DNA of 41,971 nucleotides, from positions 1-41,971 of the forward strand of contig JAFMNE010000020.1 of the NCBI GenBank assembly GCA_017859395.1. The letters run 5' to 3'. The position numbers and the translations under genes were made by a program. Shown here in pieces: positions 4,253 through 12,850 of the stretch (its first letter is position 1; the number at the start of each line of letters is the position of its first letter). The notes beneath the pieces are model-generated. The model was not told the origin of the DNA. It searched no databases and saw nothing but the letters and a program-made list of their open reading frames with translations. The stretch comes from Ilumatobacteraceae bacterium. Lineage in GTDB: Bacteria; Actinomycetota; Acidimicrobiia; Acidimicrobiales; Ilumatobacteraceae.

Positions 4253-5716
4253 TCACACGCGCTGGCGTGCCTCAGCTGTGCGCGACATGTTCCGAAGCAT
4301 GCCTTCAAACACGATCCCGTGGAAGGGCCACACCGACCACCAATAGATTTTGCCGGCGATACCTCGTGGTGTGAACGTCGCGCGCTGGAAGATACGAGAA
4401 CCGGCGCCGTCCGACTCAACACGGAATTCAAGCCACGCTCGTCCGGGAAGACGCATCTCGGCTCGCAAACGCAGGAGGTGTCCGGGTTCGAGTGCTTCCA
4501 CCCGCCAGAAGTCGAGGGCTTCGCCAACATGCAAATAGTCGGGATCACGACGACCTCTCCGCAGGCCGACTCCGCCGATAAGACGATCAAGAAAACCACG
4601 CACCGCCCAAGCCAGCGGGAACGAGTACCAGCCTCGCTCACCGCCGATGCCCTCTACCACTTTCCATACATCCATGGGCGATGCATCGACGTGGCGGTCG
4701 CGTTCATCTATCTCAACATCGCCCCCGGCCCATACTGGATCACTCGGGAGCGGATCGGACGGGGCATTCGGCCACGACGCATCTGACCATCGGGTCTCGA
4801 CCGATCCCTGCTGGATTTTCTCGAGCGCTAATCTCACCGCCTCGTCATATCCGATCGGTGTCAAACCAATCAGGGCCTGCAGGTCACGCTCGCGTGGCAC
4901 CACCGAGTTACGAAGAGACTCCACAAGAGGCACCGCAATTGCACGAGGTACCGGCGTCACAATATTCACCCAGTGGCTTGACAGCCTGGGGGTCAGAACC
5001 GGGATCGGGATGATCAATCGTCGACCAAGTCCGGCAACACGCGCGTACCGATGCATCATGTCCCGATAGGTCATGACTTCTGGGCCTGCGATATCAAATT
5101 GCCGATTCAACCCATCCGGTAAATCAACGGCGGCAATCAGACAACGTAGAACGTCGCGCACTGCGATCGGGGCAACCTTGCTGTCGACCCATCGTGGCGT
5201 CACCATGGCTGGGAGTCGCTCCGTCAAGTAGCGAAGCATCTCAAACGAGGCGCTCCCCGATCCGATGATCACCCCCGCCTGGAGTACGACGGCCGGGACG
5301 GATGAGTCAAGGAAAATTTGCCCAACCTCTGCTCGCGACGCGAGATGTTTGGATACGTCTTCGGTGTCAGGCGGGATGATCCCGCCGAGGTACACGATCC
5401 GCTTCACACCCGCACGTCGCGCAGCACCAACGACGTTGACCGCGCCGCGACGGTCCGAGTCACTGAAGTCGCCGGCCGTGCCAATTGAGTGCACCAGATA
5501 GAACACCGTGTCAACACCGACACACGCCGATTCAACAGATCCGGCATCTAAGACATCGCCCCTGAGGATTTCAGCGTGTGTTGCCCACGGAACCCCGGAG
5601 AATTTGGTGGGATCACGCGCGAGGCAGACGACGTCGTAGCCAAGGTTGATGAGAGATGGCGCAAGGCGACCTCCGACGTACCCGCTCGCTCCTGCGATCA
5701 GGATTCGTCGCTGCAT
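4253..5716 (-). CDS. NAD(P)-binding SDR-family protein with C-terminal DUF2867 domain
   Basis: 487 residues in two parts. Residues about 1-300 form an atypical SDR/NmrA-like Rossmann domain (AGASGYVGGRL near the start, VFYLVHS, YLGGI). Residues about 330-485 match the DUF2867 pattern: WYSFPLAW, PDYLHVGEALDFWRVE, LRAEMRLPGRAWLEF and a tryptophan-rich IYWWSVWPFHGIVFEGML end. The pairing of these domains is common in bacteria; the reaction is unknown. ATG 5716 is preceded by TACGCT (5723-5728) at exactly 6 bases, a leaderless signature. The gene runs away from the neighbouring tRNA. Confidence 0.88.
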   Translation of the reverse strand: MQRRILIAGASGYVGGRLAPSLINLGYDVVCLARDPTKFSGVPWATHAEILRGDVLDAGSVESACVGVDTVFYLVHSIGTAGDFSDSDRRGAVNVVGAARRAGVKRIVYLGGIIPPDTEDVSKHLASRAEVGQIFLDSSVPAVVLQAGVIIGSGSASFEMLRYLTERLPAMVTPRWVDSKVAPIAVRDVLRCLIAAVDLPDGLNRQFDIAGPEVMTYRDMMHRYARVAGLGRRLIIPIPVLTPRLSSHWVNIVTPVPRAIAVPLVESLRNSVVPRERDLQALIGLTPIGYDEAVRLALEKIQQGSVETRWSDASWPNAPSDPLPSDPVWAGGDVEIDERDRHVDASPMDVWKVVEGIGGERGWYSFPLAWAVRGFLDRLIGGVGLRRGRRDPDYLHVGEALDFWRVEALEPGHLLRLRAEMRLPGRAWLEFRVESDGAGSRIFQRATFTPRGIAGKIYWWSVWPFHGIVFEGMLRNMSRTAEARQRV

Positions 5717-5801
5717 GAGCCAAGCGTACGACGCCCTCGACCCAGATGTGTTTCCGCGCAGATTGCCCAGTTGGCCACAGCAGGCGGGGACCCTACGCCG
5801 G

Positions 5802-5874
5802 CGCCCCCGGCACGACTCGAACGTGCGACCTGCGGTTTAGGAAACCGTTGCTCTATCCACTGAGCTACGGGGGC
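5802..5874 (-). tRNA. tRNA-Arg (anticodon CCT)
   Basis: Folds as a 73-base cloverleaf on the minus strand: 7-bp acceptor (GCCCCCG/CGGGGGC), D stem GCTC/GAGC, anticodon stem around the loop TTCCTAA giving anticodon CCT, a 5-base variable loop, and T arm GCACG-TTCGAGT-CGTGC. The discriminator base is G, and the 3' CCA is not encoded. It would read AGG codons. The first pair at the base of the anticodon stem is a mismatch (A-C), which is tolerated in tRNAs. Confidence 0.93.
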
Positions 5875-5969
5875 GGGGATGGCCCGAAACGTGGTCCGAA
5901 ATTCGGACACAGCGCGTTGGGTTACCGACCGTTGAGGTTAGCGGGGAAGCTTGTTAGCTCGAAGAGCGA

Positions 5970-6280
5970 TCATCGGCCGGCGAATACCTGACGGTCGGTG
6001 AGGTCCTCTGTCTCAGTGCGAATCGAACGACCCGCGTTGGTCAGCCCTCCTCCGCTGTCGACGATGCCGTGCTGGCCGAACCGAGAGACCGCAGCCTCAA
6101 GATGCCGACGCTCCCAACCTTGCCACTGCTCGAACAACTCCAGTTCGATACCGCGCTCGGCGGTAGGCAGCACCGCCGCCTCCAGACTGTCGATGCCGAA
6201 CACGGCTAGGGCAGCCACGTGACCATCGCTGCGTTGCTCACGGACCGTCGTGCACCACTGCCACTCGTCCTGCACCCCGA
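5970..6280 (-). pseudogene. Remnant of a SCO6745/SalK-family gene (C-terminal part)
   Basis: The minus strand encodes a stretch that resembles the C-terminal third of actinobacterial SCO6745-family proteins: REQRSDGHVAAL, then a linker, then WERRHLEAAVSRFGQHGIVD, GLTNAGRSIRTETEDLTDR. I recognise the RxHRxDGHVAAL and LTxAGRxLRxxIExxTDR patterns from memory of the family. Full-length members are about 250-290 residues. Here the similarity begins abruptly near 6280, next to the start of the divergent GNAT-AAA gene, and ends early at a stop at 5970. No N-terminal two thirds is visible, so I call it a decayed fragment. It could alternatively be a short expressed ORF. Confidence 0.5.
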
Positions 6281-6300
6281 TGGTCGGGGTAGCGTGGTGC

Positions 6301-7569
6301 ATGGCGTTACAAATCTGCGATCTTAAGCCGACCGACATCGGCGCCGCGGTTCGCCTGCTGGAGGAAATCCGTCAGCTCCCCGACAGCACCCCGATCGAGA
6401 TCGATCAATTCATCACCGAGGTCAACGACGGAGCCGTCGTCGTCGTGGCTCTCGCCGAAGGCGCACTCGTAGGACTCGCGAGCGCACGTGTTGCCGGCGA
6501 CCGAGCTTGGACCCAATTCCTCGCGATATCGCCCTCCTGGAGAAAACAAGGAATCGGCTCCGCCCTCACGAATGGGCTGGAGAGTCGCCTCCTCCACCTC
6601 GGCGTCCGTAGAGTCTCCGCGCTCCTCGAACCCGGTCGTCTCGGTGAACGAGCGCTCGTCAACCGCGGATACGTCCCGACGACGGGAATGGTGCTGTACG
6701 AGAAGTCGCTCTCATTTGAACCTAGCGAGGTCCGCATCATCGACAAGTGGGGTGGCCAAATCCTCGACACCGATCTCTGGTCACAACTCGCGGGGATGGA
6801 GCGAGAGAAGTCGCTGATCGACCAGCGGATCGTGGCACCACTCGCGAATCCAACGGTCGCCTCCGAGGTGGGGCTGCGACTCCCGGGGACCGTGCTGATG
6901 TTCGGCCCTCCCGGAACCGGCAAGACCACCTTCGCCCGAGGCCTCGCGAGCCGACTTGAGTGGCCCTTCGTGGAGCTGCTGCCATCGAAGCTGGCGAGCG
7001 GCGAGGGTCGCCTCGCCGGCGAGTTGCGTGAAGCTCTCATCGAACTCGGGCATCTCGAACACGTCGTCATCTTCATCGACGAGTTCGACGAGATCGCGCC
7101 GGCGCGGGAGAGCAGCCCCGCCTCCGCCGGGGTGGTCAACGAACTCCTGAAGTCGATTCCGGAACTTCGACGACGGCCCGGCAAGTTGTTGGTATGTGCC
7201 ACCAATTTCGTGGAGACCATTGACCCAGCGGTACTGCGACCCGGGCGATTCGATCTCCTCATCGGTATCGGCCCACCAGACTTGGATGCCCTCAGAGCTC
7301 TGTGGGCTCAGTCCCTCGGCGCGATGAGGGTTCACTCCGACGTCGACATCGATGCCGTGGCCGACCGGTGCGTCGGATTCACACCCGGTGATGTCGACCT
7401 CGCCGCCCAACGCGCTGCCTCCCTCGCGTTCTCACGGGCAAGCGAAGGTGGAGACACCGTGGTCACTACAGCGGACATCGACGACGCGGTCGAGCGAACC
7501 AGCCCATCCGTCACCCGCAAGATGTACGACACCTTCCGTTCCGAAGTCGCTGCCTTCGAACGTATCTAG
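6301..7569 (+). CDS. GNAT N-acetyltransferase fused to AAA+ ATPase
   Basis: 422 residues. Residues about 1-140 are a GNAT domain, with the acetyl-CoA pyrophosphate loop RKQGIGSAL near residue 81. Residues about 165-420 are a classical AAA+ module: Walker A GPPGTGKTT (about 202-210), Walker B VIFIDEFDE (about 258-265), sensor-1 CATN, and an arginine-finger/SRH segment LRPGRFDLLIGIG, followed by the C-terminal lid ending in VTRKMYDTF. The AAA part looks like the FtsH/Cdc48 group without a protease. Start ATG 6301 is supported by TAGCGT at 6290-6295, five bases upstream. Flanking sequence holds two gene remnants. The acetyl acceptor and remodelling target are unknown. Confidence 0.87.
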   Translation: MALQICDLKPTDIGAAVRLLEEIRQLPDSTPIEIDQFITEVNDGAVVVVALAEGALVGLASARVAGDRAWTQFLAISPSWRKQGIGSALTNGLESRLLHLGVRRVSALLEPGRLGERALVNRGYVPTTGMVLYEKSLSFEPSEVRIIDKWGGQILDTDLWSQLAGMEREKSLIDQRIVAPLANPTVASEVGLRLPGTVLMFGPPGTGKTTFARGLASRLEWPFVELLPSKLASGEGRLAGELREALIELGHLEHVVIFIDEFDEIAPARESSPASAGVVNELLKSIPELRRRPGKLLVCATNFVETIDPAVLRPGRFDLLIGIGPPDLDALRALWAQSLGAMRVHSDVDIDAVADRCVGFTPGDVDLAAQRAASLAFSRASEGGDTVVTTADIDDAVERTSPSVTRKMYDTFRSEVAAFERI

Positions 7570-8078: not shown

Positions 8079-9161
8079 TCACGTGCTGCCTGAGAGGAAC
8101 GGCACCTCGCAGGCTTGGCCGGTGATTACCGGCTCATGCACCACCACATTGCCGTGACCACCAGCCGACCACGATGGGAACACCGCCGAGTACAACCCCT
8201 CCGCACCGGCCACGAACACCACGACATGTTCCGGCGATGGCACGGTGCGCACCATGTCGGCATCGTCGCCACGCGGCGTGAATGCGGGATTCAGCAAACG
8301 AATACGCCCACGCGGCACGTGACACAGGTCGAACACTCGCTGCTGAATCGTCTCGCGCGTCCACCCCGCACCCGACAGCACCCGAGCGTGCTCCGGGTTC
8401 AGCGCCACCGCAACCGCACCCGTGCGCAGATACAGGTTGTTCGAGCCGGCGTTCACCACCACTTCGGCGATGATGCGCAACAGCCGCTCCGGTGAATCTG
8501 GATCATCCGCATCGTTCACGAACATCACGGAATGCGGGCCTTCCGTGCCCAGCGCAGTCACCACGTCATCGCCGGCCGCATACCCCCAACACGACGACAG
8601 CGGCGGGAACGGCGACTCGCTCTCTGCCTCCGCGAGACACATGGAGAACTTCCCTGGATGACCGAGCAGAGCCATATCGGACACGCCAGGTGCCGCGCCG
8701 CCGATGTTCAACAGGCACAGACGTACTGCTCGCCCGATGCTCGCATTCGCCCGATGCCCCGGCCCCAACGCACCAAAACCCGATGCGATGCCAGTGATCG
8801 GTGCGAGCGCTCCGTTCACGATGATCAACGGCGCGATCGAGTGGGTGGTGGACTGCACCTCGCTGAGGTCGAACGCCGGTTGCAGCACCGCCTGCACCGC
8901 CGCCAGCACATATGGCATGTGATCGGGGTCGCAGCCCGCCATCACCGTGTTCGTCGCCACTTTGGCAACCGTGGCCACACCACCGAGCGGGCCCACCTCG
9001 CCCAACACCACGTCGGCATCGAGTCCCGATGCCAACACCATCCGATCCACTCGCTCCGGGGTGGGGATCACCACCGGCAGGCCGTCGGTGCATCCCATCT
9101 CGTGAAGCTGCCGCAGCGCATCTGCGTCGTCTGTAGCGCTGAGCACCTGCGGCACGCTCAC
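8079..9161 (-). CDS. Conserved partner of UGSC selenoprotein, function unknown
   Basis: 360 residues, cytoplasmic. I do not recognise a characterised enzyme. Seen: an N-terminal TDGLPVVIPTPERVDRM motif, a core with TNTVMAGCDPDHMPYVLAA, IIVNGALAPITGIASGFGALGPG and HPGKFSMCLAEAESESPFPPL. I recall the DGLPVVPPT-type opening from uncharacterised proteins encoded beside UGSC-family genes, so the pairing is probably functional. GTG 9161 overlaps the stop of the upstream selenoprotein (GTGA), which means translational coupling. Several conserved-looking Cys and His residues are present but no metal-site pattern is clear. Probably a redox or thiol-linked step with the selenoprotein (inference). Confidence 0.75.
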   Translation of the reverse strand: MSVPQVLSATDDADALRQLHEMGCTDGLPVVIPTPERVDRMVLASGLDADVVLGEVGPLGGVATVAKVATNTVMAGCDPDHMPYVLAAVQAVLQPAFDLSEVQSTTHSIAPLIIVNGALAPITGIASGFGALGPGHRANASIGRAVRLCLLNIGGAAPGVSDMALLGHPGKFSMCLAEAESESPFPPLSSCWGYAAGDDVVTALGTEGPHSVMFVNDADDPDSPERLLRIIAEVVVNAGSNNLYLRTGAVAVALNPEHARVLSGAGWTRETIQQRVFDLCHVPRGRIRLLNPAFTPRGDDADMVRTVPSPEHVVVFVAGAEGLYSAVFPSWSAGGHGNVVVHEPVITGQACEVPFLSGST

Positions 9162-9709
9162 ACCAACGCTGGTGGGTTGTCGGCCACCGACTCGCCGCGC
9201 AGCACCTCGAGCAGACGCGGAACGATCTGGTCCGCCAATGCTGCCATCTCTTCTGCGCTCGATCCCGCCACGGGATGCGGCAACCGGATGCGCGGCACAT
9301 CGGGCATGCCACCCGATAGCGCGATGAGGTCACCCTGTTGCCAAAACGGCTCGGTCACGAGTGCCACCACCGCCACCCCTCTCATCGCCAGTTGGATCCC
9401 GTCACGCACGGTGCCGGAGGTGCAACTGCCTCAATGCCCGTAGGCCGCGATCACCGCGGAGCAGGTATCGGAAATCTCGTTGAGATCTTCTGTGGTGGCC
9501 AGAGCACTGGCGTTGCCCTTGTTCCATAACTTCGTGGTGAGGTCAGCCGCGTGTCGTTCAACAGCGGCACCAATATGGCGGAGAAACTCAACCGAACCTG
9601 GGAAGCCGTTGGCAAACAAGCCGATCTGGCTGCCTGCTCTCAACGATGCGGCCACCTCATAGGAGTGCACCGGCCCGGATCGTTCGCCACGTGGATCGCA
9701 GAACTGCAC
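9158..9709 (-). CDS. UGSC-family selenoprotein (TGA read as selenocysteine)
   Basis: 183 residues if the in-frame TGA at 9433-9431 is decoded as selenocysteine (residue 93). Upstream frame: 92 residues ending CSAVIAAYGH. Immediately after the TGA comes GSCTSGTVRDGIQLAMRG, so the product reads U-G-S-C-T, the motif that defines the UGSC family. The same frame then continues without a stop (VVALVTEPFW, PHPVAG) to 9158. Both halves fit the family's single-domain layout. Start GTG 9709 is preceded by TAGGGT (9716-9721) at 6 bases, and that TAG is also an in-frame stop, so no longer start is possible. It overlaps the next gene by 4 bases. Biochemical role unknown; decoding needs selA/B/C/D elsewhere in the genome. 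Confidence 0.85.
9389..9433 (-). promoter_or_regulatory. Candidate bacterial SECIS hairpin after the Sec codon
   Basis: Directly 3' of the TGA, CAGTTG (9428-9423) can pair perfectly with CAACTG (9394-9389). The 28 bases between allow a short TCC/GGG inner pairing and a GC-rich tip (GGCACCGTGC). A hairpin placed a few bases after the UGA inside the coding sequence is where bacterial SelB-binding SECIS elements lie. Pairing was found by eye and is not energy-tested. Confidence 0.45.
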
Positions 9710-9763
9710 ACCACCACCCTAGGTGATGGACATCGGCATCAATTCGTCGGCCAATGCCGGCGC

Positions 9764-10841: not shown

Positions 10842-11147
10842 TCACTGACCGGCCATCAGCCCAAACATCTCCTCAGTCGGAATGAACGGACCCGACGACT
10901 CAACTTCGGCCAACTGCTCGGCCGCAAGGCGGGCGATGACTCGAACCGACGACTCAACATCGGGATAGGTGTTCACATTGATGAACTTTCCGATGCCAGC
11001 AGCAAAACCACCAACGATGGTGGTGGCACCACCCTCTTCAAGAATCGCGAATTGACGTCCAACGAGAGCACTCCACTCCTCGGAGCCAAAGACGATGCCG
11101 TCATACGCGCGACCCGGGCGCGCAATGGAAAATGATGTGTAACTCAT
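10842..11147 (-). CDS. Small alpha/beta-barrel-like protein, last gene of operon
   Basis: 101 residues starting MSYTSFSIARPGRAYDG. Length, the short beta-strand opening (YTSFSIAR) and an amphipathic helix ending in AAEQLAEVESS suggest a ferredoxin-like, dimeric alpha/beta-barrel fold (ABM/EthD/GYD superfamily), but similarity is weak and the family is not identified. The start was chosen at ATG 11147, with an AGGA about 11 bases upstream. It follows the small membrane protein gene by 93 bases that contain a 13-bp inverted repeat, and is followed by a terminator. Function unknown. Confidence 0.65.
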   Translation of the reverse strand: MSYTSFSIARPGRAYDGIVFGSEEWSALVGRQFAILEEGGATTIVGGFAAGIGKFINVNTYPDVESSVRVIARLAAEQLAEVESSGPFIPTEEMFGLMAGQ

Positions 11148-11174
11148 TCTTTTCTCAGTCCTTTCGTCACTCCG

Positions 11175-11210
11175 TGAATCTTGCTTGCCAGATAACACAA
11201 GCAAGATTCA
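11175..11210. repeat. 13-bp perfect inverted repeat between operon genes
   Basis: TGAATCTTGCTTG (11175-11187) and CAAGCAAGATTCA (11198-11209, plus A11210) form a perfect stem with a 10-base loop. It lies between the stop of the membrane protein gene and the start of the last gene of the operon. No U tract follows on either strand, so a processing site, mRNA stabiliser or attenuator is more likely than a simple terminator. Confidence 0.6.
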
Positions 11211-11240
11211 ACGAAAGCATCCGGTTTCAACAGTTAGCGA

Positions 11241-11594
11241 TTAGTAGATGGTGATGATTTGGAACACGGCGATGGCCGCACAGAACAACGCATTCGTTGC
11301 GCGGTAGAACGCGAACGGTGTTGCAGAGTTGAGCTGCCCGATTGGCGTATCTGCCACCGACGATGGCATCGACTTCACCAGGTTCATGAAGACCTGCTGC
11401 GCATAGTCGAATGTCAAAATGCCGAACAGCGCCACGCCAACTGCGGAGACGGTGAGAAGTGCCTGCACGTCATCGCTGGCACCGAACACAATCGTGGCGG
11501 TCAGCGCCGCGGTGGCGAGCAGATAGGTGAGTTGGTTCATCCGCATCGTTGCGGAGTTCTGCTCACCGGCTCTGTTCCATGTGTCTTCGTTCAT
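11241..11594 (-). CDS. Small membrane protein of the alpha/beta-barrel operon
   Basis: 117 residues with three predicted membrane segments: about 21-38 (TYLLATAALTATIVFG), about 44-63 (LTVSAVGVALFGILTF) and a C-terminal one ending VFQIITIY. ATG 11594 is supported by a strong GGAGG ribosome-binding site. The SD-containing loop after helix 1 (GASDDVQALL) and the SATPFAFY segment before helix 3 resemble GLSDNAEVAL and KAPFPVYF in the protein at 9764-10123, so the two are likely paralogues. I do not recognise the family. It may anchor or transport something handled by the small soluble proteins beside it (inference). Confidence 0.72.
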   Translation of the reverse strand: MNEDTWNRAGEQNSATMRMNQLTYLLATAALTATIVFGASDDVQALLTVSAVGVALFGILTFDYAQQVFMNLVKSMPSSVADTPIGQLNSATPFAFYRATNALFCAAIAVFQIITIY

Positions 11595-11662
11595 GATGTC
11601 TTTCCTCCGTATGCCTGTGCCGAGTACCGACACAATTTGATGATGTGGGGGATGCCCACCCG

Positions 11663-11953
11663 TTAGACGGTGATATCTGCCACCAGATCCAAGTTCTGGA
11701 AGCGAACCTCACCGACACGAGCGGAGAACTCAGCAGCCGCGGCCTGGGTGATCTCAAGGTTGTTGTTCGCCTCGGCATCGGCAGCCGAATCGAAGAACAT
11801 GATCTGCACGACGGTGCCCGGCCGGTCGCGATCTGCGCACACGATTGCTCGACGTGCGAACGACTGCCCGCCGGCGGACTTGCGATACTCCTCGATGAAC
11901 GCCACCGCATCGGCCGGATCCATCTCGAATTCCATGATCTGCATGTAGCTCAT
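11663..11953 (-). CDS. Small antibiotic-biosynthesis-monooxygenase-like protein
   Basis: 96 residues, MSYMQIMEFEMDPADAVAFIEEYRK at the start, then VVQIMFFDSAADAEANNN and a C-terminal strand. This is the beta-alpha-beta-beta-alpha-beta outline of a dimeric alpha/beta-barrel (ABM-like). ATG 11953 begins two bases past the stop of the gene upstream, so the pair is coupled; a longer in-frame start would overlap that gene by about 70 bases. No catalytic residues are conserved across this superfamily, so activity cannot be inferred; cofactor-free oxygenases, heme-handling proteins and non-enzymes all use this fold. Confidence 0.7.
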   Translation of the reverse strand: MSYMQIMEFEMDPADAVAFIEEYRKSAGGQSFARRAIVCADRDRPGTVVQIMFFDSAADAEANNNLEITQAAAAEFSARVGEVRFQNLDLVADITV

Positions 11954-11954
11954 G

Positions 11955-12242
11955 TCATGAGTCCATGATCTGGGCGACTCGAGCTGCGGCGTCACCAACA
12001 GGCTGGATTCGGATCGTTCCCGCATCGGTGATTGGACGGAATGCGTCCTGGATGGCTGTGATGTCGTCAGACTCGATGACGAAAAACATCTGGTGCGCGA
12101 GTTGGTCGACCCACGCGCCGACCAACGTCACCGACGATGCCGCAATGCTGGGAAACAGCGCACCGAAGCTCGACTGCATGCCCTCTGGGTTGTCGATTGG
12201 GCAGGTGTGCTCGGTGTGGGTATGTGTGATGTGGAACAGCAT
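11955..12242 (-). CDS. Small alpha/beta-barrel-like protein
   Basis: 95 residues beginning MLFHITHTHTEHTCPIDNP, followed by a helix, VTLVGAWVDQLAHQMFFVIES and a second helix ending RVAQIMDS. The opening MLFHITHTHT and a later strand QMFFVIES are like DUF3303/GYD-type ferredoxin-like proteins. The His-rich first strand plus Cys14 could bind a metal or heme (speculation). ATG 12242 shares a base with the TGA of the upstream gene (TGATG), showing tight coupling. Confidence 0.72.
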   Translation of the reverse strand: MLFHITHTHTEHTCPIDNPEGMQSSFGALFPSIAASSVTLVGAWVDQLAHQMFFVIESDDITAIQDAFRPITDAGTIRIQPVGDAAARVAQIMDS

Positions 12243-12850
12243 CAGTAGAGCCGCCGACCCAGCACCCGGCCGAGCACCGTCGTGCCACTCGTTGCCATCA
12301 TCTCGTGCACCTTCGGATCAGCGAAGTTCTTTGCCGAAGCAGCAAGAAGTGCATCAATTGAGTCGGACCATGTGGCGACGGCACCGGTGAACGGTGCGGG
12401 GCCCTGCGCAATGACCTGCATGGCGGTCATGCCGTTGGCGCCATCTTGCACGTGACTCCAGTTGTGGGAGAAGTTGGCCATTGCTGTGGCGTCGTCAACC
12501 ATGCCACCACCCAAATACAGCGCCGATGAGTAGGCCCCCTCGCGGACACCAAAGTCGGCCTGCACGCGCATCAGGCCGCGACGCAGCACCTGCACCTGCG
12601 TGTCACGCATGAGCGCGACCATCTTGTCGTCGGCGTAAATCTTCGACTGCAGATCCATCGCAGCATCTGCGGTTGCCGTCTCAAACGAGACAAAGACCGA
12701 CCCGGCCATCTCGCCACCCATGATCACCTCGGTCGCTGTGGAGCTGATGGCCCCCATCTCCATGAGATGATCTGCAGCCCATTCTTCGGCAGCTGTGCCG
12801 AAACCTTCCGCGTCGCCCATTTTGGCGACGACGATGTAGACGAATGACAT
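12242..12850 (-). CDS. Tandem alpha/beta-barrel-like protein, first gene of operon
   Basis: 202 residues, apparently two ferredoxin-like units: residues about 1-95 (MSFVYIVVAKMGDAEGF to TQVQVLRRG) and about 98-202 (ADFGVREGAYSSALYLG to RVLGRRLY). Internal duplication of the ABM-like fold is inferred from the repeated strand-helix order and the LRRG/LGRR endings, not from close identity. ATG 12850 has a GGGGG ribosome-binding site about 6 bases upstream. It heads the four-gene soluble set and is preceded by a perfect palindrome at 12878-12898 that may be an operator. Function unknown. Confidence 0.72.
   Translation of the reverse strand: MSFVYIVVAKMGDAEGFGTAAEEWAADHLMEMGAISSTATEVIMGGEMAGSVFVSFETATADAAMDLQSKIYADDKMVALMRDTQVQVLRRGLMRVQADFGVREGAYSSALYLGGGMVDDATAMANFSHNWSHVQDGANGMTAMQVIAQGPAPFTGAVATWSDSIDALLAASAKNFADPKVHEMMATSGTTVLGRVLGRRLY

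Follow-up and report, generated by a model that had tools for sequence, protein, structure and literature searches.

A predicted selenocysteine gene of the UGSC family and its near-constant partner gene in an Ilumatobacteraceae genome

The locus and its reading frame

The window, by which we mean the whole stretch of 41,971 nucleotides analyzed here (contig JAFMNE010000020.1 of assembly GCA_017859395.1, from an Ilumatobacteraceae bacterium), carries two overlapping genes on its minus strand. Their features are as follows.

9716..9721, minus strand: TAGGGT, a -10-like box at -12 of the GTG start, from the TANNNT comparison in 10 genes
9158..9709, minus strand: UGSC selenoprotein gene of 183 residues, selenocysteine (Sec) at 93, GTG start and TGA stop, from the reading frame and the PF24696 match
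9431..9433, minus strand: in-frame TGA, probably read as Sec, from its conservation in relatives
9422..9433, minus strand: U-G-S-C (UxxC) motif, from the sequence, at the start of a helix (94-109) in the AlphaFold2 model
9399..9417, minus strand: SECIS hairpin inside the coding sequence, stem CCG-G-CAC / GUG-A-CGG and loop CGUGC, from pairs counted on 50 genes and from codon use
8079..9161, minus strand: partner gene, 360 aa, with no Pfam or NCBIfam family over cut-off and a 4-base overlap with the UGSC stop, from adjacency and fusions

The GTG at 9709 starts a 183-codon frame whose true stop is the TGA at 9160-9158, and whose single internal TGA lies at 9433-9431, residue 93. The codons directly after this TGA encode GSCT, giving the U-G-S-C motif at residues 93-96 on which the original prediction of a selenoprotein was built. 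As that prediction anticipated of standard gene calling, a mechanical ORF list breaks the gene into two separate ORFs, 9709-9431 (92 aa) and 9409-9158, the latter starting at an internal GTG and encoding 83 aa, and the locus is thus a clear case for annotation of a gene cut in two by ordinary gene finding. The read-through protein matched Pfam family PF24696 at 139.8 bits (cut-off 25; E 1.3e-40), with residues 4-171 of 183 aligned to positions 3-171 of the 172 in the profile. The match therefore crosses the TGA, in agreement with the claim that the two frames are one gene. The narrower NCBIfam equivalog NF041046 was also aligned over its full length (2-147 of 147; E 1.8e-29), and its score of 102.7 bits lies below the cut-off of 125, so that the window protein is not filed under the narrower name. 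Assignment to the UGSC family accordingly holds at the level of PF24696 and fails at that of NF041046.

Two further details of the original prediction were borne out. The TAGGGT at 9721-9716 ends 6 bases upstream of the GTG, and TANNNT stands at -12 in 8 of the 10 genes compared, the window's gene among them, which suggests a leaderless transcript. At the other end, the four bases GTGA are common to the UGSC stop and the start of the next ORF, 9161-8079.

The UGSC family itself is already known. The accessible text of Zhang and Gladyshev (2008; PMC2398784) places it among the most abundant selenoproteins of aquatic samples, with 255 Sec forms and 21 Cys homologues, and a 2026 review (PMC13188914), in its accessible part, lists it among selenoproteins whose functions are largely uncharacterized. 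With the family as described in that part of the 2008 text, the window's gene shares the full-length profile match, the Sec-first UxxC, the TGA codon and a SECIS. It differs from the UGSCTSC form of the motif, since the window type (YGHUGSC followed by TSG or TTG) is without the second Cys.

Conservation of the TGA, the hairpin and the selenocysteine machinery

To place the gene among its relatives, we examined 120 genomes, namely the window's own and 119 others related to it at order level or closer. These held 127 UGSC matches, 120 with one TGA and 7 with none, and exactly one TGA was found in 117 of the 119 matches longer than 400 nt. Among the relatives' fetched loci that fit the motif pattern, the TGA occupied the Sec position in all 49 distinct sites. 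A set of 80 named loci was retrieved with the partner protein as query, UGSC not being used; 77 of them contained a UGSC gene, with the TGA at the Sec position in 74, two (L131, Rhodococcus wratislaviensis, and L139, Roseicella) carried Cys instead, and one (L122) had other stops. The U/C-G-S-C motif and the sequence downstream of the TGA were kept in relatives, including the close homologues.

Two or more UGSC matches occurred in 28 of the 81 UGSC-bearing genomes, and the copies may serve different substrates. One genome of the order (G083, with loci L013, L064 and L173) had 10 UGSC and 9 partner matches, fragments counted.

Counting the T of the TGA as base 1, the hairpin of the window type occupies bases 17-35; its stem has six pairs interrupted by one G-A mismatch and carries the loop CGUGC. 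We aligned the window with 49 window-type loci, leaving out L149 (another type), L107 and L113 (which contain N) and L122 (stops). Across these 50 genes, 47 of them distinct, 99.6% of cells were paired. In two pairs both bases had changed, with U-A replacing C-G in five distinct sequences and G-C replacing C-G in one, and the covariation score was reached by none of 500 shuffles. Codon use tells the same story: codons +6 to +10 (Gly-Thr-Val-Arg-Asp) showed zero entropy, with one codon each in the 50 genes, where the arginine, present in 49 of 50, is written with a single codon in those 49. For comparison, 45 conserved positions elsewhere in these genes had codon entropies from 0.65 to 2.46 bits (mean 1.51). 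The constrained codons span Actinomycetota, Gammaproteobacteria and Chloroflexota.

A different hairpin was found in 22 other UGSC genes (22 of 23 such sites, one being truncated; the codon-use count took 21 of the 23). It covers bases 17-31, and its loop of five bases (AGUGU, for example) lies 2 bases closer to the TGA than the loop of the window type. All of its cells were paired (100%), and 12 were doubly changed, for example TGC...GTG-CAC against TGG...GTC-CAC. The SECIS loop of Escherichia coli fdhF likewise has G and U at about 23-24. Folded alone, the window's hairpin was no more stable than shuffled sequences (z 1.20, -0.15 and -0.03), and the case for the SECIS thus rests on the comparison.

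The organism was expected to have the whole Sec pathway, and its genome (2.25 Mb, 95 contigs, 95% complete) contains every part sought: selA (393 bits), selB (259.5 bits), selD (316.5 bits) and a tRNA-Sec scoring 62.6 bits against a gathering score of 47, with anticodon tca according to ARAGORN. Among the 120 genomes, UGSC was found in 81 and selA over cut-off in 90, with both in 75, UGSC only in 6, selA only in 15 and neither in 24 (Fisher p 5e-10, a value that ignores relatedness). For four of the six genomes with UGSC only, particular circumstances were noted: completeness is 58% in G001, a piece of selA sits at the end of a contig in G003, UGSC in G089 is a 37-column fragment only, and G021 still has a tRNA-Sec (66.8 bits); for G060 and G073, 89% and 84% complete, we found no cause. 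Among 10 genomes tested for tRNA-Sec, Rhodococcus alone had none over cut-off, and Roseicella had one despite its Cys form of UGSC. In at least 10 other genomes, selA lies 3.8 to 4.5 kb from UGSC.

These results bear on two other readings of the split frame, both of which we regard as having next to no chance of being right. A frame divided by TGA does look like a pseudogene, and decayed relatives exist (L122, with two stops at the motif, and L121, without most of UGSC), but the disruption of a single gene, by a stop mutation or through faulty sequencing, does not agree with the recurrence of one TGA (117/119 long matches, 49/49 fetched sites, 74/77 UGSC-bearing named loci), with conservation of the part after it, or with a SECIS under constraint; the compensatory changes in the hairpin and the constrained codons behind the TGA uphold the earlier argument against a pseudogene. 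An open frame cannot by itself tell what TGA means, so that an ordinary amino acid (through a change of code) or leaky readthrough, either without selenium, might be proposed; however, the same gene and several relatives use TGA as a normal stop, tRNA-Sec (tca), SelA, SelB and SelD are present, the hairpin is under constraint, and Rhodococcus wratislaviensis, which has Cys at this position, is the species without a tRNA-Sec over cut-off.

The two decayed relatives deserve a separate description. The UGSC gene of L122 (2759-3289) has TAG at the Sec codon and a TGA three codons earlier, at a Tyr/Trp position, whereas in L121 (about 5300-6100) UGSC is mostly deleted and the partner has an internal stop. 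The two loci have common flanking sequence even though they were binned as different phyla, and we take them as likely, if unproven, cases of decay or mis-binning. TAG-encoded UGSC genes have been reported in Geodermatophilaceae (PMC5330540, accessible part). For L122 we rejected a TAG-encoded Sec: its genome bin has a tRNA-Sec with anticodon tca.

The partner gene and a second operon

The gene that overlaps the UGSC stop is a near-constant companion of UGSC and is left unnamed by the family libraries that were searched. A partner match lay within 1.5 kb on the same strand for 118 of the 127 UGSC matches in the 120 genomes, and UGSC stood beside 120 of the 130 partner matches; judged by coordinates, the unpaired matches of either kind were mostly fragments or at contig ends. 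In one genome (G059) the two genes are 2.1 kb apart. Similarly, UGSC was found within 1.5 kb of the partner in 75 of the 80 partner-retrieved loci and 3.7 kb away in 2 more. The partner follows UGSC in the window, whereas partner first is the commoner order in the relatives' genomes (86 pairs, against 32 with UGSC first). In two genomes the genes are fused, once with the Cys form (L173) and once with the Sec form (L174), both loci having been fetched on account of their long frames. A conserved domain fused to UGSC, Unknown_1, is described from GOS data in the accessible text of the 2008 study (PMC2398784), and it resembles the partner in being joined to UGSC in this way.

Searches of the partner against Pfam and NCBIfam gave no family over cut-off, and the 52 members of its alignment gave none at E up to 0.01. 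That alignment holds the window and 51 of the 80 partner loci; an internal stop excluded L121 and L132, and the rest were omitted by choice. Cysteine C175 is conserved in all 52 members and C77 in at least 90%. Two hits were set aside as chance: Pfam Piwi (E 0.042 and 13.5 bits, where 28.9 are required) and, with the partner profile, PDB entry 3him_A (E 0.00079 over 99 positions of a transcription regulator). Sequence searches of the PDB with UGSC and with the partner gave no convincing match. The partner's structure was modeled confidently (pLDDT 89.0); Foldseek gave it no match at E of 0.001 or below, with a cyclic amide hydrolase ranked first (E 0.015), and VIA gave no clear match, the best Z being 5.9 over 82 residues.

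The window's genome has a second copy of the arrangement. Contig C95 (L012, 1-1700) carries a partner paralogue on the minus strand (match 133-1116), whose N-terminal region is thioredoxin-like and contains CATC; this region had no Pfam match, and against the PDB it gave weak matches with thioredoxins first (best E 0.0023). From the contig end, the order is partner paralogue, tRNA-Sec at 1597, then selB and selA. Bases 1-89 of the contig, read on the minus strand, encode 29 residues that start like the genus's other UGSC type (compared with L030), so that the genome has a further UGSC gene, truncated where the contig ends. The tRNA-Sec also lies beside the same UGSC-partner pair in G003 and G013, and was absent from the stretches examined beside the pair in G012 and G084.

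Fold, kinship and possible chemistry

On the strength of the comparisons that establish the gene structure, the conserved TGA, the SECIS, the complete Sec machinery and the near-constant partner, we give a probability of roughly 0.9 to the reading that this is a UGSC-family gene that functions with selenocysteine and is accompanied by its partner gene. The hairpin at bases 17-35 would mark the UGA as the site to which SelB delivers the Sec-tRNA.

An AlphaFold2 model of UGSC was built from 75 sequences (74 of the 80 UGSC hits and the window) and reached a pLDDT of 91.7 and a pTM of 0.88. Its strands and helices alternate, and Sec93 comes after strand three, where helix 94-109 begins. Foldseek ranked flavodiiron proteins best (E 6.7e-5, TM 0.47), and the 50 matches listed by VIA, at Z 8.6 to 11.2, began with a designed protein and comprised varied alpha/beta sandwiches. 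Judged from the model, the matches reflect a common arrangement and point to no specific structural relative, and the predicted fold appears to be an alpha/beta sandwich of Rossmann-like type, and probably not the thioredoxin fold put forward in 2008.

Under that 2008 proposal, UGSC would be a thiol-disulphide oxidoreductase of thioredoxin-like fold, here taken as acting without a partner. The UxxC motif fits such an enzyme, as does the paralogous partner with its thioredoxin-like N-terminus. However, in the model the strands and helices alternate with Sec after the third strand, and the matches listed, in lists that leave room for other folds, were flavodoxin-like and other alpha/beta sandwiches with no thioredoxins among them; moreover, UGSC nearly always adjoins its partner. 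We therefore consider this proposal unlikely, while granting it far more weight than the two readings dismissed above.

A possible kinship of another sort emerged from profile comparison with the Sec-containing subunits GrdB and PrdB of glycine and D-proline reductase (GRDB, PF07355). Of the 120 genomes, 42 gave GRDB matches, both full GrdB and shorter PrdB-like proteins, and the window's genome was not among them; the 11 GRDB proteins aligned all had one in-frame TGA. Short PrdB-like proteins with one in-frame TGA occur among relatives at the levels of genus, family and order (L186-L192). In hhalign, the alignment of UGSC with the GRDB Sec domain spans 79 columns and places the Sec residues opposite each other, and the C+3 residues too, at E 3.8e-6 and, the other way round, 4.2e-7 (single-pair values). 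Controls gave 0.081 for the reversed profile, 0.068 for the best of 100 column permutations, 0.021 for GrdE (one sequence) and 0.01 for the best of 21 other alignments, the last derived from simple ORF calls of which some may not be real genes and two are the partner itself. Masking Sec raised the E-value to 7.2e-5, and masking Sec and C+3 to 3e-4; GrdB alone gave 1.5e-4, PrdB-like proteins alone 4.1e-4, and the window's UGSC type alone against GRDB 0.0013.

In direct searches, PF24696 reached 2 of the 11 GRDB proteins (best E 0.072), and PF07355 matched neither the window protein at E up to 10 nor the 75 UGSC members at E up to 1. The partner did not match GrdE (E 0.51, one sequence), and no solved relative of the GRDB proteins was found by sequence. 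A literature search, with supplements and most subscription papers outside its reach, found neither the partner named nor a link between UGSC and GrdB. UGSC and GrdB/PrdB thus have in common a weak profile similarity above controls, with Sec and C+3 aligned, and the fact that both are Sec proteins encoded with a partner; they differ in that a direct PF07355 match is missing and, in one test, the partner is unlike GrdE. According to the accessible part of the 2026 review (PMC13188914), GrdB is the subunit to which the substrate binds, and its motif is UxxCxxC; many UGSC proteins share this spacing (UGSCTSC), whereas the window type is without the last Cys. From these sequence profiles, a kinship of UGSC with GRDB appears likely, not proved.

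By analogy, UGSC might be a Sec-dependent reductase working like the GrdB/PrdB subunits, a tentative suggestion that we put somewhat below an even chance. UGSC and its partner would form a complex and act as one enzyme, with the selenol at the helix start of the Rossmann-like domain, three residues before the Cys. The selenolate would attack the substrate, and thiols would then undo the bond to selenium; in the second operon, a possible source of reductant is the partner paralogue, through its fused thioredoxin-like region. The pair may thus represent a two-component selenium-dependent reductase. It is also possible, if slightly less probable than its contrary, that such enzymes constitute a third group alongside the reductases of glycine and proline, cleaving a bond in their substrate and encoded by a gene pair that Actinomycetota, Gammaproteobacteria, Chloroflexota and others carry, with a variant SECIS of its own, as many as ten UGSC matches in a genome and, in one genus, a place next to the Sec-tRNA gene. 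To the known family, the present analysis adds a partner gene, a variant form of the SECIS, another operon adjoining the tRNA-Sec gene, and the possible link to glycine and proline reductases. The constant partner, the likely fold and this possible kinship make the function of UGSC testable.

The neighborhood of the window-type pair offered no constant pathway across 51 loci. The commonest clusters occurred in 8 loci; judging from the sequences, we take the neighbors to include SDR, MaoC, CaiB, nitrile hydratase and fumarase. Upstream of the UGSC operon in the window, four small minus-strand ORFs (10842-12850; 120, 130, 120 and 202 aa) had no Pfam family at E up to 0.01. Elsewhere in the window, the plus-strand ORF 6250-7569 combines GNAT acetyltransferase and AAA ATPase domains, which looks unusual.
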